DNA from: Tianweitania sp. UT-5YL-CI-8
Lineage (GTDB): Bacteria; Pseudomonadota; Alphaproteobacteria; Rhizobiales; Rhizobiaceae
Assembly (NCBI RefSeq): GCF_030010215.1
Contig: NZ_JASCRR010000003.1
Location: 310,001 to 374,000 of the forward strand
Direction of reading: 5' to 3'
DNA: 64,000 bases
In this document: in pieces, positions 8,476 to 21,097 of the stretch
Layout: each line of letters begins with the position of its first letter
How positions within the stretch are numbered: position 1 is the stretch's first letter
The notes under the pieces: generated by a model
Database searches by the model: none
Told to the model about the DNA's origin: nothing
Seen by the model: only the letters and a program-made list of their open reading frames with translations
Position numbers and translations under genes: made by a program

Positions 8476-8490
8476 TGGCGGAAGAGGTGG
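8476..8490. repeat. attL core (copy of tRNA-Ser 3' end)
   Basis: TGGCGGAAGAGGTGG is identical to 21083-21097, the last 15 bases of the tRNA-Ser gene read on the opposite strand. It marks the left end of the element; sequences diverge immediately after it. Confidence 0.8.
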
Positions 8491-8525
8491 AACTGGTGAG
8501 ATCCAAACAAACCAAGTGCTTGGAC

Positions 8526-8586
8526 TGTCAAACCTCCAAAGACCCCCTCGCTGTTTTCCTTCGGCTTTTGTCCAGATTGTCAAACC
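8526..8586. repeat. Integrase arm-type site candidates, left end
   Basis: Two direct copies of TGTCAAACC (8526-8534 and 8578-8586), 52 bases apart, just inside attL. The same word recurs twice inside attR (21012-21020 and, inverted, 21031-21038). Placement at both ends fits arm-type integrase or excisionase binding sites. Nothing else is seen between attL and the primase gene. Confidence 0.5.
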
Positions 8587-8616
8587 ACTTGCAGGGCCTT
8601 GCAAAAGGAACTGCAG

Positions 8617-10836
8617 ATGCAAACGACCTACGAACGGTTTATCCGCTCGACCCTCGAGCCGCCTACACCTGAAAATGAAAACGCCGCTCCGAGGGCAAAT
8701 CGGAACGGCGTCAAAACAAATCAGGAAAAGTATCCGCAACCAAAATATCAAAGCCAGCCTCGTAAGGCAACAGATTTTGCCGAGGTTCTCGGCCCGTCGA
8801 TGCTCGATCTTCCGGTGGCGGTCACCCGTTTCCCATCGCAGGCAGCCCAAACAAAAGCCGAACGGCAATTGAGCATGCGCCAGCTTGCCGAAGAGATCGG
8901 CCAGGCCACGGCGCAGGACAAGTCTGGATTGCCTTGGTTCAAGCTTGGCTCTTTTGGTGAGCGGCGGACCGAGAAGAACTGTCTTCGGAACAATGAGAAC
9001 CTGCTTTTCGTGTCGGGGATAGAAGCCGACTACGATGCCGGAACAATGTCGCCGGATGAGGCAGAACGTCGACTCAGCGCGGCCGGCATCGCTGCCATGG
9101 TCTACACAACGCCAAGTCATGCGCAGGAAGGGAAGGGCAGCCGATGGCGCGTTCTCGCTCCTTTCGACACGCCTCTATCGCCAGAGAAGCGCGCCCAGCA
9201 CGTCGCAAGGTTAAATGGAATTCTCGATGGGGCGCTCGACGGAACGTCTTTCGTGCTCTCCCAATCCTATTTCGGCGGGAGTGTTAAAGGGCGACCCCAT
9301 GTCGACGTTCGTTTGATCGACGGGATGGCAATCAATAGGGCAGGGCACTTGGATGCAGGTGCTGTCGGCAAAAGGACTGCTGCAACTGCCGCGATGCATG
9401 ACCTGTTCGAGGATATCCTTGGCGGCGCTCCCAAAGCTAAAGAGCAGTTAGGCATCGAAAGGTGTCGCGAGATCCTGGCCGACCTGCCGCCCGAGTGGTG
9501 CGAGGATCGGGATTCATGGATTCGCGCAGGCATGGCCCTGCATCATGAGTTCGGCGGGAATTCAGAAGGCTTCGCAGTCTGGGATGCGTGGAGCCGGCAT
9601 TCTCGGAAATATGATGCTGCCGACATCAAGCGGGACTGGCGCTCGTTCCGCGATAAGGCGCAGATCGTGACTATGGGCACGCTGGTGAAGGCGGGCGAAG
9701 CCAATCGTCAAGCGCGGATCGATCGGCAGCTAGATAGCGAATTCGAGAATCTGGGCGAGGACGATCTAGCAAAGCCCGCACCTAAGCCGAAATCCGGTCT
9801 CACCTTCCTGTCGCCGTCCGACTGTTCCGCCATGCCTTCACGCGGCTATGTCATCAAGGGTTTCATAGCACCCGGTGACATCGCCTGCATCTTCGGCGAG
9901 CCGGGCGCGGGCAAGTCGATGATTGCGCCGTATCTCGGCTATGCCGTTGCGCAGGGTCGGGAAGCCTTCGGCATGCGGACGAAACCCGGCAAGGTCTTCT
10001 ATCTACCGATGGAAGACGAGACGGGCATGCAGATGCGTGTTCGCGCGCTCCATGAGCAGCACGGCGATGCGGAAAACTTCTTTGTCGTGCGCGGTGCGTC
10101 GATCCATGGCGATGAAGGGCTTAAAGAGCTGTTGCTCGAGGTCAAACGACAGCAGCCTGCACTCATTATCATAGACACGCTTGCCGCTTCCTGGCCCGGC
10201 CTCGAGGAGAACAGCAGCGAAGCCATGTCGAAGGTTGTAGCCGTCGGCAAGCGCCTGGCGCGGTTCGGCGCTGCTGTCGTTTTTATCCACCATTCGACCA
10301 AGGACTCGAACGGCACCCCGCGCGGGCACTCTGTCTTGAATGGCGCGCTGGACGTGAGCATGGAGCTGTTCAAGCCGGATGAAGACGGCATCGCACGCGG
10401 TCGCTTGCGCAAGAACCGCAACGGGCCTTGCGAGCTGGACATGGCTCTCCGAATTCAGTCGCATGAGTTCGGCCTCGATGAGGATGGCGACCCGATCACA
10501 GCCGGCTATTGCGAGCCATGCCAGCCGGGAAGCGCTCCAAAGGCCGTGCGTCTCACCATTCCCCAACGCGAAGCTCTAACCATCCTGCGCGACATGGCGA
10601 CAACCGGCGACATGTCGCCGGTTGTAGCCATGGAAGAGTGGCGGCAGGCCTGCAGCCAATCAGCCAAGATCAGCACAAGCGACAACCGCAAGTCAGTCAT
10701 GACCGCAGTTCGGCGAGCAATAGAGGGCCTATTGCGAGAAGGCTTTGTCGAGAAAGTCGGCGAGACCGTCGTCATTCATGATCCTCACGGCGTAACCGAT
10801 GACGAAATCGACGACTTGGGAGACGACGATGCGTGA
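8617..10836 (+). CDS. Primase-helicase (PriCT_2 and RepA-like AAA ATPase), satellite replication protein
   Basis: Replication initiator of the element. The N-terminal third looks like an archaeo-eukaryotic primase-polymerase domain: a metal motif EADYD near residue 136, then TPSH near 167 and a basic/hydrophobic VDVRLIDG strand. A PriCT_2 (primase C-terminal 2) domain follows at ~278-360 (CREILADLPPEWC to GTLVKAG). The C-terminal half is a RecA-like hexameric helicase domain with Walker A GEPGAGKS near 426 and Walker B LIIIDT near 516. ATG at 8617 has AAAGGA upstream. The 3' end holds a long palindrome and the first iterons. Such fusions are typical of phage and satellite Rep-Pri proteins. 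Confidence 0.88.
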   Translation: MQTTYERFIRSTLEPPTPENENAAPRANRNGVKTNQEKYPQPKYQSQPRKATDFAEVLGPSMLDLPVAVTRFPSQAAQTKAERQLSMRQLAEEIGQATAQDKSGLPWFKLGSFGERRTEKNCLRNNENLLFVSGIEADYDAGTMSPDEAERRLSAAGIAAMVYTTPSHAQEGKGSRWRVLAPFDTPLSPEKRAQHVARLNGILDGALDGTSFVLSQSYFGGSVKGRPHVDVRLIDGMAINRAGHLDAGAVGKRTAATAAMHDLFEDILGGAPKAKEQLGIERCREILADLPPEWCEDRDSWIRAGMALHHEFGGNSEGFAVWDAWSRHSRKYDAADIKRDWRSFRDKAQIVTMGTLVKAGEANRQARIDRQLDSEFENLGEDDLAKPAPKPKSGLTFLSPSDCSAMPSRGYVIKGFIAPGDIACIFGEPGAGKSMIAPYLGYAVAQGREAFGMRTKPGKVFYLPMEDETGMQMRVRALHEQHGDAENFFVVRGASIHGDEGLKELLLEVKRQQPALIIIDTLAASWPGLEENSSEAMSKVVAVGKRLARFGAAVVFIHHSTKDSNGTPRGHSVLNGALDVSMELFKPDEDGIARGRLRKNRNGPCELDMALRIQSHEFGLDEDGDPITAGYCEPCQPGSAPKAVRLTIPQREALTILRDMATTGDMSPVVAMEEWRQACSQSAKISTSDNRKSVMTAVRRAIEGLLREGFVEKVGETVVIHDPHGVTDDEIDDLGDDDA
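10594..10631. repeat. 38-bp near-perfect palindrome inside the primase gene
   Basis: Arms meet at ACATGT; the central 26 bp are perfectly symmetrical (ACAACCGGCGACA and its complement), flanked after one mismatched pair (10599/10626) by ATGGC/GCCAT. It contains three copies of the GGCGACA word that recurs downstream, within the coding frame of the protein. Confidence 0.7.
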
Positions 10837-11190
10837 TCCCCGAAACGGATTCCTTGCCATATCCGTGCGGCGACAAGTGGCGACAACACGGCGACATGTC
10901 GCCACTTGTAGCATCCGCAAATGGCGGGCCGGAAGGCGACAGACAGCGACATGCCCCTTTAGGGGCTGTCGTCTTGTCGCCACCTGCCATGACCCTCGAA
11001 CTGAAACCTATCGAAGGTCTGCCCGATCTCCGGACTTTGTAGCCTGCCGATCATCTCAGCGTGACAGCTTGCGGTTGAACGCAACACATCACCCTAGCGC
11101 GGGTCCTCTGCGGCGGGGGGCCGTTTGCGGGGGCGCCGAACTCTCGAAGTTTTGCTCTTTCCGAAAAATTCAGAATCGAGATTCCCGGCG
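10837..11190 (+). other. Non-coding region with GGCGACA iterons: candidate replication origin, and cos region before terS
   Basis: Within 10596-10981, including the end of the primase gene, GGCGACA or its complement TGTCGCC occurs nine times (10596, 10606, 10613, 10869, 10879, 10890, 10897, 10935, 10975). Three copies at 10869-10896 are tandem, with centres 10-11 bases apart (one helical turn), and the arms ACAAGTGGCGACA / TGTCGCCACTTGT form a 13-bp inverted repeat (10874-10886 and 10897-10909). A GCCCC-TTTA-GGGGC hairpin lies at 10953-10966. The stretch at ~11095-11140 is G-rich and sits where cos sites of lambda-type terminases lie. No convincing gene is seen here. Confidence 0.6.
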
Positions 11191-11751
11191 ATGAAAAATC
11201 TAAGCGTGACATCCGCAAACGATTTCGATGACATCTTGGGCGGCTCGCCAGCAAGCTTCGAAACAAATCGATCCTTCGAGACTTCGGCATCAGAAAAACC
11301 AACCGGAAAACGGCCATGGCTGGCCCGTGAGCCCGATCTTGCTGCGTTCTGGGGAGTGGACGGACGGACGGTGCGTAAACTCGTCAGCGAGGCTGCAATC
11401 GAGAAGTTGGAAGATGGCCGTTTCGACGTTTCCGAATGCACCAAGCGCTATTTGAAACGGCTAGTTGTATCGGCCAAGGTTCGAAACTCGAACGATCCGG
11501 AATTGCGCGCACAGAAACTGCGCATCGCGCAAGAGCAAGCCGATCAGCTTGAACTCAAAAATCAGGAAAAGCGCGGCGAACTCGTTTCGGCAAAGGACGT
11601 CGAATCCGAGTGGGCCGATGTTCTGAGAACAGTCCGCGCGGGTCTTCTGGCCGTGCCGGCTAGAGTCGGCGCGCGCCTGGCCTTGCCGCAAACGCACCTT
11701 TCAGAGATCGACATCGAAATTCGCGCCGTGCTGAAGGAGTTGGGCGAATGA
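11191..11751 (+). CDS. Small terminase subunit (Nu1-like)
   Basis: DNA-recognition subunit of the packaging motor; expected to bind cos and load the large subunit. The 186-aa protein has an N-terminal winged-helix/MerR-like DNA-binding segment (REPDLAAFWGVDGRTVRKLVSEAAIEKLEDGRFD, described here by its core DGRTVRKL at ~60-67) and a charged coiled-coil segment (KLRIAQEQADQLELKNQEKR), followed by the DVLRTVRAGLLAVPARVG region found in Nu1-type proteins. ATG at 11191 is preferred; a longer in-frame start at 11125 would add 22 residues. It overlaps terL by ATGA. Confidence 0.8.
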   Translation: MKNLSVTSANDFDDILGGSPASFETNRSFETSASEKPTGKRPWLAREPDLAAFWGVDGRTVRKLVSEAAIEKLEDGRFDVSECTKRYLKRLVVSAKVRNSNDPELRAQKLRIAQEQADQLELKNQEKRGELVSAKDVESEWADVLRTVRAGLLAVPARVGARLALPQTHLSEIDIEIRAVLKELGE

Positions 11752-13520
11752 CTGCCACACTCGAGACTATCCGCCGCAATGCGATGCGTTCGCTCATTCC
11801 CCCGCCGCGCTTGCGATTGTCGGATTGGGTCGAACAGCACATGCGACTTCCGGAGACCGTCTCAGCGGCACCCGGTCCGATCCGTCTTTGGCCACCTCAG
11901 ATCGGCATTGCAGACGCAATCACCGATCCGACGATTGAGCGCATCACGCTGGTGAAGCCGGTCCGCGTCGGATTCTCAACGCTGCTGACGGCCACACTCG
12001 CGAGCTTCATCGCAAACGAACCCAGCCCGATCTTGCTTTTGCTTCCCACCGAAGCCGATTGCCGTGACGTCATGGTGTCTGACCTCGAGCCGATCTTCAG
12101 CGCAAGTCCGACGTTGCAGGGCCTGCTTTCGAGCGATTCCGATGAGGGCGGGCGCAACACGCTTCTCAGCCGGCGCTTCCCAGGTGGAAGTTTAAAAGTC
12201 GTGGCGGCAAAGAGCCCGCGCAACCTGCGTCGGCACAACGTCCGAATCCTGCTCTGCGATGAAGTCGACGGCATGGAGTCCGGCCCGGAAGGCAGCCCGA
12301 TAGTTCTTGCCGAGAAGCGCACCCTGTCGTTTGCCAACCGCAAAATCATCATCGGGTCGACTCCTGTCTATGAAGCCACCTCGCATGTGCTGAGATCCTA
12401 CGAAAACAGCGACAAGCGGGTTTTCGAGTGCCCGTGCCCGGAATGCGGGGAATTCAAGGAAATTCTGTGGAATCACATCCAGTGGGATGTCGGGAAGCCT
12501 GAAACCGCCGCTTTTTGCTGTCCGCATTGCGGCGCCGTTTCCGAAGAAAGCAAAAAGGCGGGAATGGTCTCTCTCGGCCGCTGGCGCATCACGGCGCCGG
12601 AGGTGATCGGGCATGCCGGCTTTCGAATGAACGCGCTTATCTCGCTTTTGCCGAATGCATCGTGGGGCAAGCTCGCGCAAGAATTCCTTGCCGCGAAGAA
12701 ATATCCCGACCTGCTGCAGGGCTTCGTGAACACGATTCTTGGCCAAGGCTGGAAAGAATCTGCTGAAGAGCTTGACGAAAATGAACTGGCTGCCCGCGCC
12801 GAAGATTTCAGCCTGTCCAAGATCCCCGCCGAGGTGATCATCGTCACCGCAGGCGTCGACGTCCAGCGCGACCGGTTGGAAATCCTCTTTTTGGGCCATA
12901 CGGCAAGCGGCGACGTGCTGGTTTTGGGGCAGAGCGTCATCTGGGGACCGCCCGACGAAGATCATGTTTGGGGCGAACTGGACGATGCGCTTAAAACAGC
13001 ATGGCCGCATGCGAATGGCGGCACGTTGCGAGTCGATGCGTGCGCGGTTGACTCCGGCGACGGCATGCACTCGGACAAGGTGCTGAATTACTGCCGCTCA
13101 CGGTTCGCCCGGCGCGTGGTGGCAATCAAGGGTGTGCCAGGCAACCGGCCGCACATACAGGCCTCGCAGACACAAGGCTCGAAGCTGTTCATCGTCGGCG
13201 TCGACGGCCTGAAAACGCTGATCACAACAAGGCTTTCCCGTGGTCGATCGATCCGCTTCTCGAACATGCTCGAACCGCGGTTCTTTGAAGAGCTGGCGAG
13301 TGAGAGGCTTATCGTCCGCTACGTGCGGGGCGCGCCCGCTCGCCAATGGATGCGCACGCCTGGACGGCGCGCGGAAAGCCTTGATTGTCTAGTTTACGGG
13401 CTGGCAGCTCGGAATCTGGTGAACATCGATACTGATCGGCGCACAACTGAATTGGCGACGGCTGCAGCGCCTACGCGGCAATCCCCTGCTGTGGTGCGGT
13501 CTAAATGGCTGGCTCGCTAA
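11748..13520 (+). CDS. Large terminase subunit (GpA family)
   Basis: ATP-driven motor and nuclease that cuts concatemeric DNA and fills the capsid. The 590-aa protein follows the lambda GpA plan: a deviant Walker A at KPVRVGFST near residue 66, Walker B ILLCDEVDGM near 166, a four-cysteine zinc-ribbon-like insertion (CPCPECG ... CCPHCG, ~228-262), and a C-terminal RNase H-like nuclease opening with TAGVDVQRDR near 366. This family normally packages from cos sites, so linear ends with cohesive overhangs are expected. The start codon overlaps the terS stop. Its own stop overlaps the stop of the convergent cargo gene by 3 bases. Confidence 0.92.
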   Translation: MTATLETIRRNAMRSLIPPPRLRLSDWVEQHMRLPETVSAAPGPIRLWPPQIGIADAITDPTIERITLVKPVRVGFSTLLTATLASFIANEPSPILLLLPTEADCRDVMVSDLEPIFSASPTLQGLLSSDSDEGGRNTLLSRRFPGGSLKVVAAKSPRNLRRHNVRILLCDEVDGMESGPEGSPIVLAEKRTLSFANRKIIIGSTPVYEATSHVLRSYENSDKRVFECPCPECGEFKEILWNHIQWDVGKPETAAFCCPHCGAVSEESKKAGMVSLGRWRITAPEVIGHAGFRMNALISLLPNASWGKLAQEFLAAKKYPDLLQGFVNTILGQGWKESAEELDENELAARAEDFSLSKIPAEVIIVTAGVDVQRDRLEILFLGHTASGDVLVLGQSVIWGPPDEDHVWGELDDALKTAWPHANGGTLRVDACAVDSGDGMHSDKVLNYCRSRFARRVVAIKGVPGNRPHIQASQTQGSKLFIVGVDGLKTLITTRLSRGRSIRFSNMLEPRFFEELASERLIVRYVRGAPARQWMRTPGRRAESLDCLVYGLAARNLVNIDTDRRTTELATAAAPTRQSPAVVRSKWLAR

Positions 13521-14086
13521 CTGTTGATGAGCCTCTTTGTAATTCGGTGCAATGTGGCAGTTGCTGAAATGAGTTCTTCATAACCTGGCACCTCAAGGCC
13601 GTGCACAATTGCGTTTCTCCACTGCAATGCCGTGTGAAGTTCTCTCTCCTCACTGTGGGAGATGAGACTTGCCTCTAGGAGAGTGCTAATCAATGAGCGG
13701 GGAGAATTTGCTGCGACCGGACGCTGCAGCGATAACAGTGCGGTTTTCCCCATCTCTTCGAACGTAGCCCACGCCGTAACGAAACGTGACTCCGCTTGCT
13801 GCCTCGCAACCTCCATGGCTTCAAGTGACGTTCGCTTTTGCCTCATCCGAAGAATGGCGTAAGACAGGATGGATATCATCACCCCACTTCCGGCAAAGAT
13901 CAGGCTGATACTCTCCTTTTCACTCAGCTGTACCTCATACAATGAGAAAATTAAGTACATCGACGACGAGAGGAATATGATAATTCCAATCACGACGTAG
14001 ATCATCAAAAGAGCATCGAAGGACGTTCGCTCGCGAAGGCGCATCAATCTTAAAAATTCTCGCTCCTTCTGACGATTTAAATCCAT
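13517..14086 (-). CDS. Two-helix membrane protein with HEPN-like C-terminal domain (candidate effector)
   Basis: 189 aa. Two membrane helices (~24-50 and ~59-81) are followed by a helical cytosolic region ending in WRNAIVHG at 156-163. R157-N158-x3-H162 fits the R-polar-x3-H catalytic motif of HEPN ribonucleases, which are common in toxin-antitoxin, abortive-infection and CRISPR effectors. The HEPN call is inference from this motif and the all-helical context; no known family is recognised. The start codon follows directly on the stop of the upstream membrane protein gene, so the two form one transcript on the reverse strand. The region is clearly lower in GC than the head genes on both sides, suggesting separate acquisition as cargo. 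Confidence 0.7.
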   Translation of the reverse strand: MDLNRQKEREFLRLMRLRERTSFDALLMIYVVIGIIIFLSSSMYLIFSLYEVQLSEKESISLIFAGSGVMISILSYAILRMRQKRTSLEAMEVARQQAESRFVTAWATFEEMGKTALLSLQRPVAANSPRSLISTLLEASLISHSEERELHTALQWRNAIVHGLEVPGYEELISATATLHRITKRLINS

Positions 14087-14479
14087 CTAATCTCTCCACG
14101 CCGATGCAATAACCGTAACAACTGTTGTAGCAAATACTATCATAAAAATAGTCATATAAAACGGATCTCTTAATCGCTCGCTGTCATACATCATTCCCGT
14201 GACTAACGCTGATAGCGAAGAAGTTATACTGAGAAAAATTCTCATTTTACTTCGTTTTCGTGGTGAAAGAGCAGTATTTCGGCTCGTTATTGTGGCGAGC
14301 TCAACCATTGTTTTTGTGATTTCGGGTGTTCCCTTTGCAGCGTTTTGCCCACTTTCAATGCGATTGACTTCGGCTAGGAACTCTATCGAATGCTGCTGTA
14401 ATGATTTCTGCAGTTGGTCCTTTGCATGGTCAGAGAACCCAAGCAAATCGCCATCATCTATAGTGATTGTAATTGCCAT
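14087..14479 (-). CDS. Small membrane protein, partner of the HEPN-like protein
   Basis: 130 aa, family not recognised. A polar, partly helical N-terminal half (FSDHAKDQLQKSLQQHSIEF) is followed by two hydrophobic helices (~80-97 and ~107-127) and a short tail. ATG at 14479 has GGAG eight bases upstream; a TTG five codons earlier is less likely. The stop abuts the next start codon exactly, so translation is probably coupled. It could be a sensor, an anchor or the antitoxin of a pair; the sequence alone does not say which. AT-rich relative to neighbours. Confidence 0.65.
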   Translation of the reverse strand: MAITITIDDGDLLGFSDHAKDQLQKSLQQHSIEFLAEVNRIESGQNAAKGTPEITKTMVELATITSRNTALSPRKRSKMRIFLSITSSLSALVTGMMYDSERLRDPFYMTIFMIVFATTVVTVIASAWRD

Positions 14480-14518
14480 GCCATCTCCGCCCAATATTCT
14501 GGCCGTACCAGCATAGTA

Positions 14519-14530
14519 AAAGCCGGCTTT
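14519..14530. promoter_or_regulatory. 12-bp palindrome upstream of the membrane/HEPN pair
   Basis: AAAGCCGGCTTT, a perfect palindrome about 40 bases upstream of the ATG at 14479. Its position in the presumed promoter region makes it an operator candidate; nothing else supports this. Confidence 0.35.
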
Positions 14531-14594
14531 AAGAAATAGGCTTCAAGGGGTTGCTCCCACAGGAAAATTGACTGCAAGTCTGAGACGAAGCTCA

Positions 14595-14828
14595 TCACCC
14601 AAGAATATCACTGAATCCAGTCTGCCGCTCATAGCGTTCAAGGCTGAATTCCTCTTTCGCCCCTAGCTCTTGCAAAGTCATCCGTTCTGAGAACCAGGCG
14701 CATGCAAGCCAGTAGGCGCGGTCGCGGGATTCCTTGCCGCCGTTTGCCGACCGAAATCCGCGATAGAGCTCGAGCCAGTCGCGCCGAAGGTCGTCTGTGA
14801 TGAAGTGGGGAGGGATGAGTTTCTTCAC
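14595..14828 (-). CDS. Small hypothetical protein of the element
   Basis: About 77 aa, rich in aromatic and charged residues (DWLELYRGFRS, WLACAWFSERMTLQELG); no family recognised and no signal or membrane segment. The GTG at 14828 has GGAAAC upstream; a TTG at 14840 is an alternative start. It is divergent from the gene at 14982 across a short region with inverted repeats, an arrangement typical of a regulatory switch, but it shows no clear DNA-binding motif. Confidence 0.5.
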   Translation of the reverse strand: MKKLIPPHFITDDLRRDWLELYRGFRSANGGKESRDRAYWLACAWFSERMTLQELGAKEEFSLERYERQTGFSDILG

Positions 14829-14842
14829 GCAGGTTTCCAAAC

Positions 14843-14868
14843 CCTACGGCGAGTTCACCCGCCGTAGG
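14843..14868. repeat. 9-bp stem hairpin upstream of the small reverse-strand gene
   Basis: CCTACGGCG and CGCCGTAGG separated by 8 bases. It lies in the leader of the reverse-strand gene and in the divergent intergenic region. No T run follows on either strand, so an operator or leader structure is more likely than a terminator. Confidence 0.45.
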
Positions 14869-14938
14869 TCTTAGCGTTGAAAGGAGCCGCCATGGCTAGC
14901 GGTCAAGGATGATATTCCTACAAAACTTCTTGCGTGTC

Positions 14939-14962
14939 AACTCGACTTGAGTTATGAGTCGA
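14939..14962. promoter_or_regulatory. Overlapping inverted repeats before the gene at 14982
   Basis: Two nested dyads: AACTC-N5-GAGTT (14939-14953) and TCGACT-N9-AGTCGA (14942-14962). A weak promoter (TTGCGT at 14930 and TTATGA at 14952) would overlap them, so a bound protein would block transcription. The regulated gene has a perfect AAGGAG at 14969. Confidence 0.4.
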
Positions 14963-14981
14963 TTTAGCAAGGAGATGCCGC

Positions 14982-15500
14982 ATGAAGCCCCTTTCCGAAA
15001 TAGCGAACGTTTTCAGTGACTTGGATATGCTGCCAGAGGAGCGCCGCCGCCATTTCGACAAGGCGTTGCGCAATCTCTCGCAGCGCCACTTTTTCCCACC
15101 AGACGCTCAGGAGGGTAAGGCGTTCTTGTACGATCGCGACTCTGTCGCCGTCCTTCGCCTTGTTCAAATCGCAGCAGGCTTTGGTCTTGATCGAGTGATG
15201 TTGGACGGCATCAACTTCTGGCTTAGAGCCGCTGGCACGAAGAGGGTGCGAGTCACGGGCGGCTATCAGGGTGTAACCCGCATTCGTGAAATGCTCGAAC
15301 GCGCCCGCGATGGGGAGGACTTCAATCTCCACATCATCATGGATTCGACAGGTAAGGTTTACCACTCGCTTGATTGGTCGACAGAAGCGACAAGCGAACG
15401 CGCGTCCCGAACGTTAGACCTGATTTCCGCTCCAGAGTTGGCACGTGTGACGCTGCCGGCTTCAACTCTGCTTCGCCAGTTGCCGGCGAGCGAGGGCTGA
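14982..15500 (+). CDS. Hypothetical protein with MerR-like N-terminal region
   Basis: 172 aa, family not recognised. The first ~80 residues (RHFFPPDAQEGKAFLYDRDSV, then LRLVQIAAGFGL) have the wing/helix pattern of MerR-type winged-helix proteins, and the downstream VRVTGGYQGVTRIREMLERARDG could be helical. The C-terminal part is predicted beta/loop with no motif I know. It starts the head-gene transcript, 3 bases before the portal gene, behind a pair of inverted repeats; a regulator of head genes or of the element's switch is plausible. The AAGGAG site and ATG at 14982 are clear. Confidence 0.72.
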   Translation: MKPLSEIANVFSDLDMLPEERRRHFDKALRNLSQRHFFPPDAQEGKAFLYDRDSVAVLRLVQIAAGFGLDRVMLDGINFWLRAAGTKRVRVTGGYQGVTRIREMLERARDGEDFNLHIIMDSTGKVYHSLDWSTEATSERASRTLDLISAPELARVTLPASTLLRQLPASEG

Positions 15501-15503
15501 GCA

Positions 15504-16889
15504 ATGCTGGACGGCCTGCGCTCCAAACTCGCACGCATGCTCGCACCGGAATCGGTTCGCCGCTTCGATGGTGCGGCGGGCGGTCGGCGTTTGACGAATG
15601 CAGGCACCTTTGGCCGACTAAATGCGGAGATCGGCGCGGCCGGGCAGACGCTTGCCAGCCGAGCGGCCTACCTCGCAACAAACCAGCCCTATATTGCCAA
15701 TGCCGTCCAGAACTGGACTGGCGCGCTTGTGGGCTCGGGCATCCGCGCAACCTCAAAGCATCCCGACGACGCAATCCGCACACGGCTCGGCCTGCGCTTC
15801 GACCGCTTCTGCGAAACTGCCGACATCGAAGGCCGCACGGATTTTCACGGAATGCTAGCCGTTGCCGCGCGTGAGCTTGTGGTGGCCGGCGAAGCGTTCC
15901 TGCTGATTGAATGGGATGACGACGGCTTCCAGCTTCGCCACATCCCCGCCGAACAGATCGACCGCAGCATCACTCGCAACATCTCCGAAGGCGCGCAAGA
16001 CGTCCAAGGCGTGCGTTTTGATGCACGTGGCCGACGTGTTGGCTACTGGATTCAGCCCGTTCGAGAAACTTCGGCCTTCGCGTCCTGGACCGAACCGGTT
16101 TTCGTGCCGGCTGAGAGCGTCCTGCACCTTATGAAGCCTATCGGTCCCGGCCAGGTGCGCGGCGTGTCGTGGCTTGCGCCGATCATCCTGCAGGCCGGCG
16201 AATTCGACAAGCTCTGCGATGGGCTGCTGATGGGCGTTTCCGTCGGCGCCATGTTTGCCGGCGTGATCACCGATGAGAACGCGATGGGCGGTGATTCCGA
16301 CCCATTCGACGGCGCAGAACAGCCTTCACTCGAACCGGGAACAATGATCCGGCTTCGTGGCGGTCAAAAAGTGACCTTTGCCAATCCGCAGCAGGCATCC
16401 GAGACCACAGGCTTTCTAAAGCAGAACCTGCATGCGCTTGCGGCCGGGCTCGGCCTGCCGACGCATCTTCTCGACAACGATTTGAGCGGCGCCAACTACT
16501 CGAGCTTGCGGGCTGGTCTGTTGCCGTTCCGGCAGCGTGTCGAGGCAATACAGTATCAGGTCTTCGTCCCGCAGATCCTGCGGCCAGTCTGGGCGAATTT
16601 CGTTCGATCAGAGATCCTTGCCGGCAACCTCGCTGCATCCGAGTTCGATGCAGCGATGGCCGTGGAATTTATCATGCCCAAACCGATGCAGGTCGACCCT
16701 GCAAAAGACGTCGCCGCATCGGTGGACATGATCGACGCTGGTCTCATGTCCCGCCGCCAGGCCGTCAATGAACTCGGCTGGTCGGTCGAAGAGCTTGATG
16801 CCGAAATCGCGGCGGATCGCAAACGGCAAGCGCTCCTTGGGCTGGATTTCTCGAAAACGAAAACTGTACCGAAGGAGTCCGCCGAATGA
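15504..16889 (+). CDS. Phage portal protein (lambda family)
   Basis: Twelve-subunit ring at the capsid vertex through which DNA enters and leaves. The 461-aa length and the signatures LATNQPYIANAVQNWTGALVGSGI (given by its core AVQNWTGALVG near residue 65), GEAFLLIEWDDDG, and the late DLSGANYSSLRAGLLPF motif with the conserved SS/SYSS-like turn near 330 mark the lambda-type (PF05136) portal. GAGGG precedes the ATG. The stop overlaps the start of the protease/capsid gene by ATGA, so portal and capsid are translationally coupled. Confidence 0.92.
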   Translation: MLDGLRSKLARMLAPESVRRFDGAAGGRRLTNAGTFGRLNAEIGAAGQTLASRAAYLATNQPYIANAVQNWTGALVGSGIRATSKHPDDAIRTRLGLRFDRFCETADIEGRTDFHGMLAVAARELVVAGEAFLLIEWDDDGFQLRHIPAEQIDRSITRNISEGAQDVQGVRFDARGRRVGYWIQPVRETSAFASWTEPVFVPAESVLHLMKPIGPGQVRGVSWLAPIILQAGEFDKLCDGLLMGVSVGAMFAGVITDENAMGGDSDPFDGAEQPSLEPGTMIRLRGGQKVTFANPQQASETTGFLKQNLHALAAGLGLPTHLLDNDLSGANYSSLRAGLLPFRQRVEAIQYQVFVPQILRPVWANFVRSEILAGNLAASEFDAAMAVEFIMPKPMQVDPAKDVAASVDMIDAGLMSRRQAVNELGWSVEELDAEIAADRKRQALLGLDFSKTKTVPKESAE

Positions 16890-18745
16890 CTCGCACCCTC
16901 AAGCATCCGCGCTTGGCCAAGCCTGCCGTGCAGACCGGCCGGCGCAAGTATGACCGGCTGGTGTCGAGCAATCCAGATGCCATTCGCGAGGGTTTAGCTG
17001 AAGACCTGGCGCCGATCTATCGGAAGGCCAGCTTCGGACAGAACAGCTTCGATGAGGCGACCTATACTATAGATGCGATTTTCTCGACGTTCGCACCAGT
17101 CCAGCGGCGGGGCTTCATTGAGATGCTTGATCCGGCTGGCCTTGACATGGCTGGCATCGTCGGGGCGCCCGTTCTGGACGGCCACCGCAACAGCAGCGGA
17201 CGGCATGTCGTCGGCGTCATCACCGATGCCCTCATCGAACACGACCAGCTTGTCGGAACGGTGCGCCTTGTGCAGTCGGACGACGCGAAGCCCATAGTCG
17301 ACCGCATTCGCGGCGGCTTCCTTCGCGACGTCTCGATTGGCTATCGCGTCCTGCAATGGTCCGACTCAACCAGCCCTGAGACCCGCGAGCGCATCCGCAC
17401 GGCAGTTCGATGGTCGATCTTTGAGCTTTCTGCCGTGCCGATTGGAGCCGATCCCGGCTCGAAATTTAGGAGCTTCCATATGGACCCCGAACTAGAAAAC
17501 ACCGAACTCGCCATGTCGGAAGCCGCCGAGACGGCTATCCGCAGCATTGGCGAGCTTGCCGATCTCCCGCCTTCGTGGGCTGCTGCCCAGATCGAAGCCG
17601 AAGCGACCATTGAAGAGGCACGCACGGCAGCCCGTGGCGAACTCGTCAAACGCTCTGCACCGACTCAGCGCATCCGAGTGCAGGCGCCTTCGCTGGAAGA
17701 CGGGACCGCTCTTGTTCGCCGTCAGTCCGATGCAATGGCCTTCCGCATGGCAGGCGGCACGCTGCCGGAAGACGCTCGGCCTTTTGTCGGTATGAGCCTT
17801 CGCGAGTACGCGGCAGCCAGCCTCGAGCGCGCTGGCATCAATACGCGCGGCATGCCCGTCGACAACATCTTCACCCGCGCCGGGCAGCACACCACCAGCG
17901 ACTTCCCGCTGTTGGTCTCGAATGCAATGGGCAAGGTGGCACTGGAGTCCTACAAGGCTGCAGAATCGCCTTTGAAGATCCTTGCTCGCCAGCGCACTCT
18001 GCCGAACTTCAAAGACTCCGCCGCAATCCGCCTCGGCGAACTCGGCAAGCTGTTGCCTATGACGGAGTCCGGAGAATTCCAGCACACGACTCGGGCTGAG
18101 AATGGCGAAATCCTGAAGCTGCAGACCTTCGGCCGGGCAATCAACGTCTCGCGTCAACTGCTGATCGATGACGATCTGGGGATGCTCGGCGATATGACCG
18201 CCGCAATGGGCCAAGCTGCTGCGCAGACCGAAGCCGATGAGCTGGTCGAGCTGCTGCTGTCCAACCCGAACCTATCGGACGGCACAGCGGTCTTCCACGC
18301 CACGCGGGGCAACATCGGCGCGCCATCGCCAATCACTATCGAGGCTCTTGGCGATGCTCGCCAGGCGATGCGCATGCGCAAAGGCTTGGACGGCAAAACG
18401 ATCATCTCTGCCGCGCCGAAGTACCTTGTCGTCGGTGCTGATCGGGAAACCGAAGCCGAGAAAGTTTTGGCCTCGATTGCTCCCGCCACAAACGACGATG
18501 CCAATCCGTTTGCCGGCAAGCTGACGCTTCTGGTTGAACCGCGGATTACCGATGGCAGCTGGTATCTGTTCGCAGATCCCGCACGGCTTGCATCTCTTGC
18601 CTATGCCTACCTGTCAGCCGCGCAGGGCGTGCAGATCCAGCAGTCCGATGCATGGTCGACACTCGGCACTCGCTTCCGGGCATGGCTGGACTTCGGCGCC
18701 GGCTGGACCGACTGGCGTGGCGCCCACAAGAACGCGGGCGACTGA
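16886..18745 (+). CDS. Prohead protease / major capsid protein fusion
   Basis: One 619-aa polyprotein. Residues ~40-195 are a HK97-type prohead protease (U35-like): DGHRN near 100 carries the likely catalytic histidine and RDVSIGYRV near 148 the serine. A charged helical segment (~205-300, EAEATIEEARTAARGELVKR) could act as a built-in scaffold. The rest (~320-619) is a HK97-fold capsid protein (PLKILARQRTLP, INVSRQLLIDDD, WLDFGAGWTDWRG). Fusion of protease, scaffold and shell makes self-processing during head assembly likely. This family is known from several phages; here it supplies the satellite's own head. Confidence 0.9.
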   Translation: MTRTLKHPRLAKPAVQTGRRKYDRLVSSNPDAIREGLAEDLAPIYRKASFGQNSFDEATYTIDAIFSTFAPVQRRGFIEMLDPAGLDMAGIVGAPVLDGHRNSSGRHVVGVITDALIEHDQLVGTVRLVQSDDAKPIVDRIRGGFLRDVSIGYRVLQWSDSTSPETRERIRTAVRWSIFELSAVPIGADPGSKFRSFHMDPELENTELAMSEAAETAIRSIGELADLPPSWAAAQIEAEATIEEARTAARGELVKRSAPTQRIRVQAPSLEDGTALVRRQSDAMAFRMAGGTLPEDARPFVGMSLREYAAASLERAGINTRGMPVDNIFTRAGQHTTSDFPLLVSNAMGKVALESYKAAESPLKILARQRTLPNFKDSAAIRLGELGKLLPMTESGEFQHTTRAENGEILKLQTFGRAINVSRQLLIDDDLGMLGDMTAAMGQAAAQTEADELVELLLSNPNLSDGTAVFHATRGNIGAPSPITIEALGDARQAMRMRKGLDGKTIISAAPKYLVVGADRETEAEKVLASIAPATNDDANPFAGKLTLLVEPRITDGSWYLFADPARLASLAYAYLSAAQGVQIQQSDAWSTLGTRFRAWLDFGAGWTDWRGAHKNAGD

Positions 18746-18747
18746 TC

Positions 18748-18966
18748 ATGGCCGCAAGCCTTGCCCAGCTGATTGCATGGCGTGAAGCGCTTTTTGAATC
18801 CCGCATGAGCGGCGTCTTTTCCGTCACCGATCAGAACGGGGAGCGCGTCACCTACAAATCCGATGCCGAGATGGCCCGCGCGCTTGCTGCGGTGGAGTCC
18901 ATGATCGCGGCAGCGGGAAGAACCAGAACAGGCACCTTCAGGGTGCAAACCTCGAAAGGCTTATGA
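18748..18966 (+). CDS. gpW-like head-tail connector protein
   Basis: 72 aa, the size of lambda gpW (68 aa), which seals the filled head and forms the tail docking site. LAQLIAWREALFESRMSG forms the first helix, VTDQNGERVTYKS the beta hairpin, and DAEMARALAAVESMI the second helix, matching the gpW order. It begins 2 bases after the capsid gene stop. If the element borrows tails, this protein is the interface with the helper's tail. Confidence 0.8.
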   Translation: MAASLAQLIAWREALFESRMSGVFSVTDQNGERVTYKSDAEMARALAAVESMIAAAGRTRTGTFRVQTSKGL

Positions 18967-18967
18967 G

Positions 18968-19297
18968 ATGAAGAACTATGTCCAGAAGGGTGAGAACCTT
19001 ACCGTCCCTGCACCCGCCAACGTCCTCAGCGGCGCGGGCGTCGTGCTCGGCTCAATCTTCGGCGTTGCAGCCGGGGACGCTACATCGGGCGCGCCCGTCG
19101 ATCTGGTGACGGAAGGCGTCTTCGAACTGCCGAAGGTCTCAGCTTTGGCCATTGCTATTGGTGATGTCGTCTACTTCGACAACGCTACCAAACTCGTCAG
19201 CAAGACTGCCTCGGGCAATATCAAGATTGGATATGCCACGGCGGTCTCTGCGAATCCTTCGGCCATCGCAACAGTGAAGCTAATACCGACGATCTAA
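18968..19297 (+). CDS. DUF2190 family capsid protein
   Basis: 109 aa. The family occurs next to capsid genes and is thought to decorate or stabilise heads. The sequence starts MKNYVQKGENLTVPAPANV and is mostly small and beta-prone residues (GVVLGSIFGVAAGD, DVVYFDNATKLV), as expected of DUF2190. It is the last head gene before a strong terminator, so the packaging/head transcript ends here with no tail genes behind it. Confidence 0.85.
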   Translation: MKNYVQKGENLTVPAPANVLSGAGVVLGSIFGVAAGDATSGAPVDLVTEGVFELPKVSALAIAIGDVVYFDNATKLVSKTASGNIKIGYATAVSANPSAIATVKLIPTI

Positions 19298-19336
19298 AAT
19301 TGCAGCAGGGTTTCCCCTTCCTTTCCTTGCTGCCGA

Positions 19337-19383
19337 GCCCGACGCGGAGTTGCTTCCTCTTCGCCGCGTCGGGCTTTCTTTTG
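19337..19383 (+). terminator. Rho-independent terminator after the head genes
   Basis: 11-bp perfect stem GCCCGACGCGG/CCGCGTCGGGC, 16-base loop, followed by TTTCTTTT. It ends the head-gene transcript and separates it from the small protein-excisionase-integrase transcript. Confidence 0.85.
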
Positions 19384-19441
19384 TCGGACCAATAAACAGC
19401 CAGTTTACTTACTCAGGTTTTTGTTGATTTAGTCGTCATTT

Positions 19442-19498
19442 TGTTTACAACTATTTGTTTTTGCTTGCACATTTCCGTTTGACCGAATGTTGTAAACA
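19442..19498. promoter_or_regulatory. Paired inverted operator-like sites before the integrase transcript
   Basis: TGTTTACAAC (19442-19451) and its exact complement GTTGTAAACA (19489-19498), with centres 47 bases apart in an AT-rich stretch upstream of the excisionase/integrase genes. A related GTTTACT word is at ~19403. Dyads of this kind suit a repressor or the AlpA/Xis protein acting on its own promoter. No gene is seen between the terminator at 19383 and 19543 apart from a possible longer start at 19504. Confidence 0.5.
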
Positions 19499-19542
19499 GC
19501 ATTATGGGTGGGGTTACTAGAGAAATTATATGGATATGTCCC

Positions 19543-19716
19543 ATGGCCCGCCCGCTTGGTTCCTTCAAAGTCACGGATCTAGAACGCGCTATAAAAGGCG
19601 CCCGCAACGTTGGCCTTCCGATCCTCAGAACCGAAATCGGAAAAGACGGTCGCATCATCCTGATTCACTCGGAGACGCCGGCGATGCCTGCGGACCAGGA
19701 AACGATTGAAATCTAG
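19543..19716 (+). CDS. Small hypothetical protein upstream of excisionase
   Basis: 57 aa from the ATG at 19543; an in-frame ATG at 19504 would give 70 aa. The pattern KVTDLERAIKGARNVGLPILRTEIGKDGRIILI is a helix followed by a beta-strand pair, a layout I associate with small uncharacterised proteins next to integrases in alphaproteobacterial elements. Described by its core, LERAIKGARNVGL at ~12-24. Function unknown. The ribosome binding site is weak for either start. It lies 2 bases before the excisionase-like gene. Confidence 0.6.
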   Translation: MARPLGSFKVTDLERAIKGARNVGLPILRTEIGKDGRIILIHSETPAMPADQETIEI

Positions 19717-19718
19717 TC

Positions 19719-19967
19719 ATGCCCGCTGCATCCCCGCAATCTGCTCTGCCATTGCCGTTTCAGCGCATGCTGTCGCGCATTCAGGCGGCGGCATATGTCG
19801 GGATCGGCCTCACCAAGTTTGACGAGATGGTGGCAGACGGTCGTATGCCTCTCGCTCGGAAGATCGATACGAGGCGCGTTTGGGACGTTCGACAGCTCGA
19901 CTTAGCCCTCGACAGGTTGCCGTCTGAAGGTGATGATTCAAGTCCCGAAACAAACGATTGGGACTGA
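19719..19967 (+). CDS. AlpA/excisionase-like helix-turn-helix protein
   Basis: 82 aa. LSRIQAAAYVGIGLTKFDEM (residues ~18-37) is a MerR/AlpA-type helix-turn-helix, followed by the wing DTRRVWDVRQLDLALDRLP (~50-68). Small proteins of this kind next to an integrase act as excisionases or, as AlpA in Gram-negative PICIs and P4/CP4-57 elements, as activators of excision. The stop codon is one base before the integrase ATG (TGA-T-ATG), so both are made together. Confidence 0.75.
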   Translation: MPAASPQSALPLPFQRMLSRIQAAAYVGIGLTKFDEMVADGRMPLARKIDTRRVWDVRQLDLALDRLPSEGDDSSPETNDWD

Positions 19968-19968
19968 T

Positions 19969-21009
19969 ATGAATCTACTTCGAAAACCACCCAAATATTG
20001 CCAGGGGTTCGAGGATCGTCACGGCACAATTCGCTGGTACTACCGGCGCAAAGGGTTTCCGCTGTCGCCGCTTCCTGGTTTGCCTTGGACGCCTGAATTC
20101 ATGGCGGCATACGAGAAGGCCGCAGAAGGCGAGAAGATCGAGATAGGGAAGGCAAAGTCCGCACCCGGCTCGGTGTCGACTCTGATAGCCAGCTTCTACA
20201 AAACGTCAGGTTTCGTATCGCTGTCGGACTCTACAAAAACCACCTATCGAGGCATACTGGAACGCTTTCGGGAAGAGCATGGCACGAAGCGGGTATCGCA
20301 CCTACAAGCCCAGCACGTCCGGAAAATTATAGACGAAAAGACAGCAACCCCGGCTGCTGCAAACAACCTACTTCGAATGATTCATCTCCTATTGGCGCAT
20401 GCCGTCGATATGGGGTGGCGTCGTGACGATCCCACTCGGGACGTCAAGAAGGTCAAACACAAGACCGCAGGCTTTGCCACATGGGATGAACAGCACATCT
20501 CACAGTTCAAGGCCTTCCACGGGCAGGGGACGCGGGCTCACTTGGCCCTCGGACTGTTGCTTTATACCGCTCAGCGCCGAAGCGATGTCGTCCGCATGGG
20601 ACGGCAGCACGTCCGAGATGAGTGTCTATCTATTGTGCAACAGAAGACAGGCCAGCTTGTCGAGATACCTCTGCATCCCGAGTTTCAGACGCTCTTGGCA
20701 GCCCTGCCACTGAAAAACATGACCTTTCTCACAACGGCACAAGGCAAGCCGTTTTCGCCTGCCGGCTTTACGAACTGGTTTCGCGACATGGTGCGAGAAT
20801 CAGGATTACCGGATAAACTGTCGCCACATGGTCTGCGAAAGGCAGCTTGTCGTAGACTGGCAGAAGCAAAGTGTTCGCCGCACCAGATCATGGCAATCAG
20901 TGGGCACAAGTCTCTTGACGAGGTGACCCGATACACGGTGGCCGCAAACCGTCGTGAACTCGCTAAGGAGGCCGCTCCACATCTCTATGGGGTCAAAACA
21001 AGAACCTAG
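19969..21009 (+). CDS. int: Tyrosine recombinase integrase
   Basis: 346-aa site-specific recombinase that inserts and excises the element at tRNA-Ser. An N-terminal arm-binding segment (GTIRWYYRRKGFP), a core-binding SAM-like domain (~75-165) and a C-terminal catalytic domain are present. Catalytic residues seen: Arg in TAQRRSD near 202, His-x-x-Arg in HGLRKA near 287, His in SGHKSLDE near 311 and Tyr in VTRYT near 321. ATG at 19969 is chosen by its coupling to the excisionase stop; an upstream TTG adds 13 residues overlapping that gene. It ends 73 bases from the tRNA. Confidence 0.94.
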   Translation: MNLLRKPPKYCQGFEDRHGTIRWYYRRKGFPLSPLPGLPWTPEFMAAYEKAAEGEKIEIGKAKSAPGSVSTLIASFYKTSGFVSLSDSTKTTYRGILERFREEHGTKRVSHLQAQHVRKIIDEKTATPAAANNLLRMIHLLLAHAVDMGWRRDDPTRDVKKVKHKTAGFATWDEQHISQFKAFHGQGTRAHLALGLLLYTAQRRSDVVRMGRQHVRDECLSIVQQKTGQLVEIPLHPEFQTLLAALPLKNMTFLTTAQGKPFSPAGFTNWFRDMVRESGLPDKLSPHGLRKAACRRLAEAKCSPHQIMAISGHKSLDEVTRYTVAANRRELAKEAAPHLYGVKTRT

Positions 21010-21011
21010 AA

Positions 21012-21038
21012 TGTCAAACCTAGGCATATAGTTTGACA
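21012..21038. repeat. Integrase arm-type site candidates, right end
   Basis: TGTCAAACC (21012-21020) and the inverted GTTTGACA (21031-21038) lie between the integrase stop and attR. They share the word TGTCAAAC with two sites just inside attL. Confidence 0.5.
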
Positions 21039-21082
21039 ATTTGCTCTGCAAGTATTTGATTTAAATGGCTAATTTTAAAGGA

Positions 21083-21097
21083 TGGCGGAAGAGGTGG
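21083..21097. repeat. attR core (3' end of tRNA-Ser)
   Basis: TGGCGGAAGAGGTGG, identical to 8476-8490. It contains the encoded CCA end and acceptor stem of the tRNA, so insertion leaves the tRNA intact. Confidence 0.8.

Follow-up and report, generated by a model that had tools for sequence, protein, structure and literature searches.

In the SaPI and PICI elements, the replication origin lies immediately 3' of the initiator gene, to which a primase is sometimes fused, and two iteron sets are described as always flanking an AT-rich region (PMC6092414). RSF1010 and the IncQ plasmids combine a helicase of the RepA fold with iterons and with hairpins that serve as primase start sites (PMC4434180, PMC4234260); RepA, RepB' and RepC are separate proteins there. 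In pRN1, a stem-loop of ~100 nt directly behind the gene of a fused primase-helicase-winged-helix protein has been shown to be required for replication; the helicase belongs to SF3 and no iterons are described (PMC4234260). In SCCmec, helicase and primase-polymerase are separate proteins (Cch2/CCPol-MP). The C-terminal domain of the helicase Cch2 was shown by experiment to read iterons downstream of the operon, inverted repeats were dispensable for this binding, and priming sites map to the putative origin (PMC7581432).

The locus described here would function in the manner of the SaPI, RSF1010 and pRN1 origins, yet in each comparison one defining feature is missing. It is situated at the 3' end of the initiator gene of a mobile element in the window, by which we mean the whole 64-kb stretch of DNA that was analyzed. 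It shares with SaPI/PICI the position behind an initiator gene with a fused primase and the two iteron sets, and to this extent the original prediction of a SaPI-type origin stands. However, no AT-rich stretch separates the iteron sets: GC content is 0.56-0.66 in 50-base windows over 10850-10999, an AT-richer dip (GC 0.38) at 11150-11199 lies outside the array, and in place of the AT-rich region we find a conserved GC-rich hairpin. Moreover, the helicase of the window is RepA-type, whereas the SaPI Rep belongs to another helicase family. The RepA fold and the iterons are shared with RSF1010, and a hairpin is present here as well, but a single protein combines the helicase with the winged helix and, in most cases, with an N-terminal domain. 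The exact hairpin core CCCTTTAGGG did not turn up in two IncQ plasmids; the candidate hairpins there (their identity as ssi sites is guessed) carry other tips. As in pRN1, a stem-loop follows a fused primase-helicase-winged-helix gene, but with an AAA_25/RepA-like helicase and with iterons. As in SCCmec, iterons downstream of the gene are apparently read by the C-terminal domain of a helicase, but primase and helicase are fused. The PICMI and PLE origin systems were also compared and, as far as their sources were available, found to be different. We therefore regard the locus as a new variant among iteron origins and as a member of none of the SaPI/PICI, RSF1010, pRN1 and SCCmec systems. Among the papers listed, no title or abstract describes the element and no title appeared relevant to the CCCTTTAGGG hairpin; subscription journals were mostly outside the coverage, and such a description may be in print.

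The array spans 10596-10981 and contains nine exact copies of GGCGACA/TGTCGCC, the number originally counted in fewer than 400 bases. The mean in shuffled sequences, 15.11 copies per 64-kb window, scales to ~0.09 per 386 bp, in agreement with the earlier estimate of well under one by chance. The whole window has 36 copies, and the 27 copies outside the array reach at most two per 386 bp. Genome-wide we counted only the spaced pair GGCGACANNNGGCGACA, the single 7-mer being counted in the window only. The exact pair occurs twice in the 5.22-Mb genome, both times in the array, and 14 sites with one mismatch exist, two of them in the array; for the spaced pair, the equal density elsewhere that would have refuted the prediction is not observed. 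Chance as the source of the array was rejected by the shuffle, window-density and genome counts.

The copies can be grouped as three palindromic units, one within the helicase-primase gene and two behind it. Unit 1 (10593-10632) has 21-nt arms at 95% identity and lies inside the initiator ORF, so that the assumed position directly behind the primase gene applies only to units 2 and 3, which occupy the bases 33-145 beyond the stop codon. Unit 2 (10869-10913) consists of three direct iterons facing an inverted and a degenerate iteron, with inverted arms of 16 nt at 94% (10870-10885/10897-10912); its tandem copies at 10869, 10879 and 10890 are spaced by 10 and 11 bp and bear out the three copies a helical turn apart. 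The 13-bp inverted arms reported before do exist as a further 13-nt pair (85%), but the arms of units 1 and 2 are longer. Degenerate iterons are found at 10623, 10678, 10907 and 10945. Unit 3 (10935-10981) comprises iteron pairs on either side of a hairpin on the plus strand, GCCCC-TTTA-GGGGC (10953-10966), which is supported by sequence, DNA folding and relatives and had previously been overlooked. Its conserved core CCCTTTAGGG (CCC-TTTA-GGG) occupies 10955-10964, and it is the coding strand that carries TTTA.

As single-stranded DNA, units 1, 2 and 3 fold far better than shuffled sequences (z -8.2, -5.1 and -5.7, respectively). Stem-loops of such strength, one of them in an intergenic gap, could also indicate an RNA structure or a transcription terminator behind the primase gene. 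The sole Rfam match up to E 1, though, is a miRNA model (E 0.74) far below its gathering score, no T-run follows the stem, and direct iterons lie a helical turn apart, one base of which follows a DNA-binding helix as detailed below. On the lack of Rfam support and of a T-run, and on the tracking of the iteron base with this helix, an RNA element was rejected; we find it scarcely credible.

From its coordinates, unit 1 encodes the loop region that links the first helix of the winged-helix domain to the second. It is a perfect-looking palindrome kept in frame within the gene for the domain that probably reads it. In 12 of 63 loci, three or more copies of the locus's own iteron word lie upstream of the core at a similar distance.

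The initiator is a primase-helicase of 745 residues (8599-10836, plus strand); its ORF starts with TTG at 8599 and has an in-frame ATG at 8617. PriCT_2, a RepA-type AAA_25 domain and a C-terminal winged helix are encoded by this one ORF. Both by fold and by profile, the best solved relative of the helicase is RepA of RSF1010 (Foldseek best match 1nlf, E 5.5e-12; profile match 1g8y, E 2.4e-15). The C-terminal domain, residues 640-745 (10516-10833, plus strand), was modeled with a pLDDT of 82 and a pTM of 0.69. Since Foldseek gave no match for it at E 0.001 or better (best 0.017), the winged-helix fold rests on the model and on structural matches by VIA-align to winged helices, with a best Z of 9.8, a value of the kind common for winged helices. 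The N-terminal domain is variable: among ten relatives examined, AAA_25 is present in all ten and a Prim-Pol domain in four. Two of the ten, both plasmid-borne, are helicases of 407 residues without a recognized primase domain, and one of these adjoins an annotated toprim-domain gene.

The surrounding mobile element of ~12.6 kb (8476-21097) is delimited by 15-bp att repeats TGGCGGAAGAGGTGG at 8476-8490 and 21083-21097, the second at the 3' end of a tRNA-Ser gene. Besides the initiator it encodes a small terminase subunit (TerS, PHROG 57; 11191-11751, plus strand, with the likely ATG at 11191 within the ORF 11125-11751), a large terminase subunit of the GpA type (TerL, by domain and PHROG matches; 11748-13520, plus strand), a lambda-type portal, a protease-capsid protein, a cement protein, a head-tail adaptor, a regulator/excisionase-like gene and an integrase. 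Set beside cf-PICI, the element has its own terminase, portal, capsid and head-tail adaptor; no tail family was detected among 17 ORFs compared with PHROGs, namely 16 larger ORFs of the element and one flanking ORF, with small ORFs incompletely covered. Between terminase and portal, at 13517-14494 on the minus strand and thus opposite to the other genes, two ORFs could represent cargo; neither has a PHROG match, and for the first Pfam gives no more than a weak match below threshold. The same genome carries a second primase-type gene (L024, contig C12 near 19285-20076) that has the N-terminal part in common with the window initiator (44% over residues 14-264) and differs in the C-terminal part.

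A plain protein query with the initiator returned one genome contig and no viral contigs, and at E 1e-30 it matched only two of 394 genomes of the family, one of them the window's own. The family of loci was opened up by DNA patterns and then by an alignment query. A 24-base pattern from unit 1 matched one viral contig (L025), in which gene order, iteron word and hairpin core are all identical to those of the window. In Heliomarina (L021) and in L023, from the window's own family, different iteron words surround an unchanged CCCTTTAGGG. The hairpin pattern GACA-CCCTTTAGGG-TGTC with variable gaps was found in at least 120 stretches of viral sequence, compared with 26 for a control with rearranged loop letters (CCCATTTGGG) and 19 for one with an inverted stem (GGGTTTACCC). 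The conservation of GACA/TGTC itself is not counted because it was part of the search pattern. Removal of duplicates by shared 70-mers reduced the 120 listed loci to 99 for the initiator count and to 96 for the stem count, for which three listed loci too near a contig end had been dropped.

Among the matches listed, an initiator homologue (phmmer, E 1e-4) was detected near the hairpin in 65 of the 99 non-redundant loci. In the other 34 listed loci phmmer found none near the hairpin, although six of ten examined have a diverged helicase/primase-type ORF near by. Homologues of the window proteins were absent from the control loci (0/26 and 0/19). The gene is on the same strand as the core in 61 of the 65 listed loci; its frame ends upstream of the core in 56 of them, at a distance of 42-137 bases in 47, and runs into or past the core in five. 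The orientation of the hairpin is not absolute since the gene is on the opposite strand in 4 of the 99 listed loci. One position further out from CCC/GGG, the stem remains complementary in 76 of 96 listed loci (shuffle mean 47.8, maximum 59), and two iteron blocks are visible by eye in many of 78 aligned relatives.

In many relatives, inspection by eye shows two further recurring words: between the iteron blocks a spacer that contains GCAAA (10917-10921 in the window), and behind the last block a word resembling (C)GATGCCC (10988-10995). ATGCCC is present in 12 of the 78 aligned relatives against 0.6 expected, and CGATGC in 13 against 0.9. A satellite-like family of contigs is represented by 17 of the 120 listed hairpin loci (L025, L033, L042, L047, L055, L062, L066, L070, L078, L091, L097, L102, L108, L120, L121, L130 and L144), in which initiator, TerS, TerL, portal and capsid all have homologues, arranged mostly as in the window.

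An alignment of 20 initiators retrieved 76 viral loci by protein, some of them on contigs common to the pattern-driven set; removal of three duplicates left 73. The architecture of array and hairpin at the 3' end of homologous genes is found in satellite-like and phage contigs and in some plasmids. In the interval from -200 to +1500 relative to the match end, the exact CCCTTTAGGG is present in 35 of the 73 loci, in identical orientation in all 35, and 79-263 bases after the match end in 34 and 792 bases in one. No exact copy was found upstream of the protein match in these loci, where the control stretch was up to 1700 bases and shorter near contig starts; five of the 76 downstream stretches were also short. 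The remaining 38 loci lack the exact core, but 12 of them show, flanked by iterons, a hairpin whose tip is related (CTTAG or CTATAG, for example), judged by eye and without statistics. A repeat array at this position, scored as present when some 6-mer exceeded its count in every 400-bp control window of that locus, was detected in 61 of 73 loci: 29 of the 35 that have the exact core and 32 of the 38 that lack it. Loss of the array in relatives that keep the primase, which would have spoken against the original prediction, is therefore not the rule, although the same test found no array in 12 of 73. Nine named records with distant homologues differ among themselves: CTTTAG hairpins occur in Rhizobium phage 16-3, Roseobacter phage CRP-811 and the Polaromonas plasmid pPNAP03 (here without clear iterons), iterons with hairpins of other tips in EBPR siphovirus 5, Caenibius p1, Salicola phage CGphi29 and a Methylobacterium plasmid, and neither iterons nor a hairpin were found in Caulobacter phage GB2A and a Manatee Spring myovirus.

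We wrote the iteron as N-GACA and, for 64 non-redundant loci, compared N with 77 well-filled winged-helix columns. These loci were obtained from 157 loci with the core, 92 of which had a winged-helix match, by requiring at least four GACA words and removing identical sequences. The best of the 77 columns is that of T702 (codon 10702-10704, plus strand), inside the predicted recognition helix 697-714, and none of 1000 shuffles did as well; K698 (codon 10690-10692, plus strand) is the second-best covarying column. Lys or Arg occupies the T702 column in 54 of 54 loci in which the base before GACA is G. With T, the residue is Gln in four of five and Ala in one, and with C it is Thr (three), Asp (one) or Ser (one); the window itself has C and Thr. 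Contacts of Lys or Arg with guanine, and of Gln with adenine (the base opposite T), are usual ones. The second iteron base N2 showed weaker associations, for which we claim no code.

The rule also held outside the main set. Of 47 such loci, nine had no winged-helix match and 12 no usable GACA iteron; in the 26 testable ones it was fulfilled in 23/23 cases for G, 1/1 for C and 1/2 for T, where Rhizobium phage 16-3 has the expected Gln and L191 has Val. Clear GACA iterons were judged by eye in these loci, L200 is weak, and the helix of L218 is the same as that of L234. In a helicase-domain tree, for which 83 of 88 labeled rows had enough of the domain (L200 and L218 are outside the 88), G or not-G coincides with Lys/Arg or not in 83 of 83 rows, and seven of seven independent pairs agree (sign test, p 0.0156). 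The window, with C and Thr, falls into a supported clade with six relatives that carry G and Arg or Lys. L067 (T, Gln) and L101 (G, Lys) have closely related helicase domains and form a natural swap pair; so do L073 and L143, which likewise differ in the iteron base and in the matching residue, T with Gln against G with Lys.

Arrays without GACA lie beside initiator homologues in L182, L189, L197, L216, L232 and L235. Such iteron words include ACGTTAC, CGGATC, GGTTGCA, GGAACCA and CGCACGG, and the recognition helix has other residues or contexts in these loci, which offer material to extend the residue-base code.

The covariation is strong evidence, by comparison and without binding data, that the winged helix of the initiator contacts the iterons, and it supports the earlier suggestion of iterons bound by the initiator next to the gene that encodes it. 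It also bears on the question of whether the array is instead a packaging site (cos/pac), with TerS bound to the iterons and the hairpin as the cut site. The array is directly upstream of the small terminase gene, where lambda-type cos sites are also found, and the 17 satellite-like loci have terminase, portal and capsid homologues as well. However, it is the residue in the T702 column of the initiator that tracks the iteron base, so that the initiator itself rather than the terminase very probably reads the iterons, though binding data are lacking here too. The rule also holds where phmmer finds no terminase, for example in L067, L073, L101 and L143 (partial contigs), and no terminase is annotated in the 7 kb around the locus of Rhizobium phage 16-3, which argues further against a terminase as the reader. 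On these grounds we rejected the packaging site, which has very little left in its favor.

Covariation speaks for binding and not for replication, and the initiator could bind the iterons as an operator that controls its own gene or the terminase operon, with replication starting elsewhere. Units 2 and 3, between the initiator and terminase genes, would suit this function. Yet the arrays follow the initiator gene despite different downstream genes, an operator would not need a conserved and oriented hairpin tip, and the origins of SaPI, SCC and pRN1 are at the same place. A role as operator alone thus appears improbable to us, but operator and origin roles may coexist.

Overall, we assign a probability of roughly 0.87 to the array being the replication origin of a head-encoding phage satellite of 12.6 kb, an activity inferred from sequence. 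Comparison supports the iterons as putative binding sites of the initiator and the hairpin as part of the same site; by inference, the iterons would give the element its specificity and the hairpin would be the invariant part. Bound to paired iterons with a spacing of one helical turn, the winged helices may load RepA-type helicase subunits on either side of the GC hairpin. This hairpin, presumed to be extruded, would present TTTA on one strand and serve as a fixed, strand-specific start or loading site, at which the fused or a partner primase would make the first primer for extension by a host polymerase. We are less sure whether the hairpin is the primase's own start site than of a role in loading because it accompanies helicase and winged helix even where no Prim-Pol domain is recognized. 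Beyond the window, we lean with reservation towards a widespread, unnamed class of origins, used by elements with RepA-type initiator helicases: satellites, tailed phages and a number of plasmids. In this class, variable iterons would be read by a one-residue-to-one-base code and an invariant, oriented CCC-TTTA-GGG hairpin would be the start or loading site, whatever the primase. The signature could help to locate origins in numerous satellites and phages that lack annotation. How a fused helicase-primase distinguishes its own origin becomes testable, namely by a residue-base code that is separate from the shared hairpin, and elements that share a cell but differ in their iteron words could then replicate together without cross-talk.
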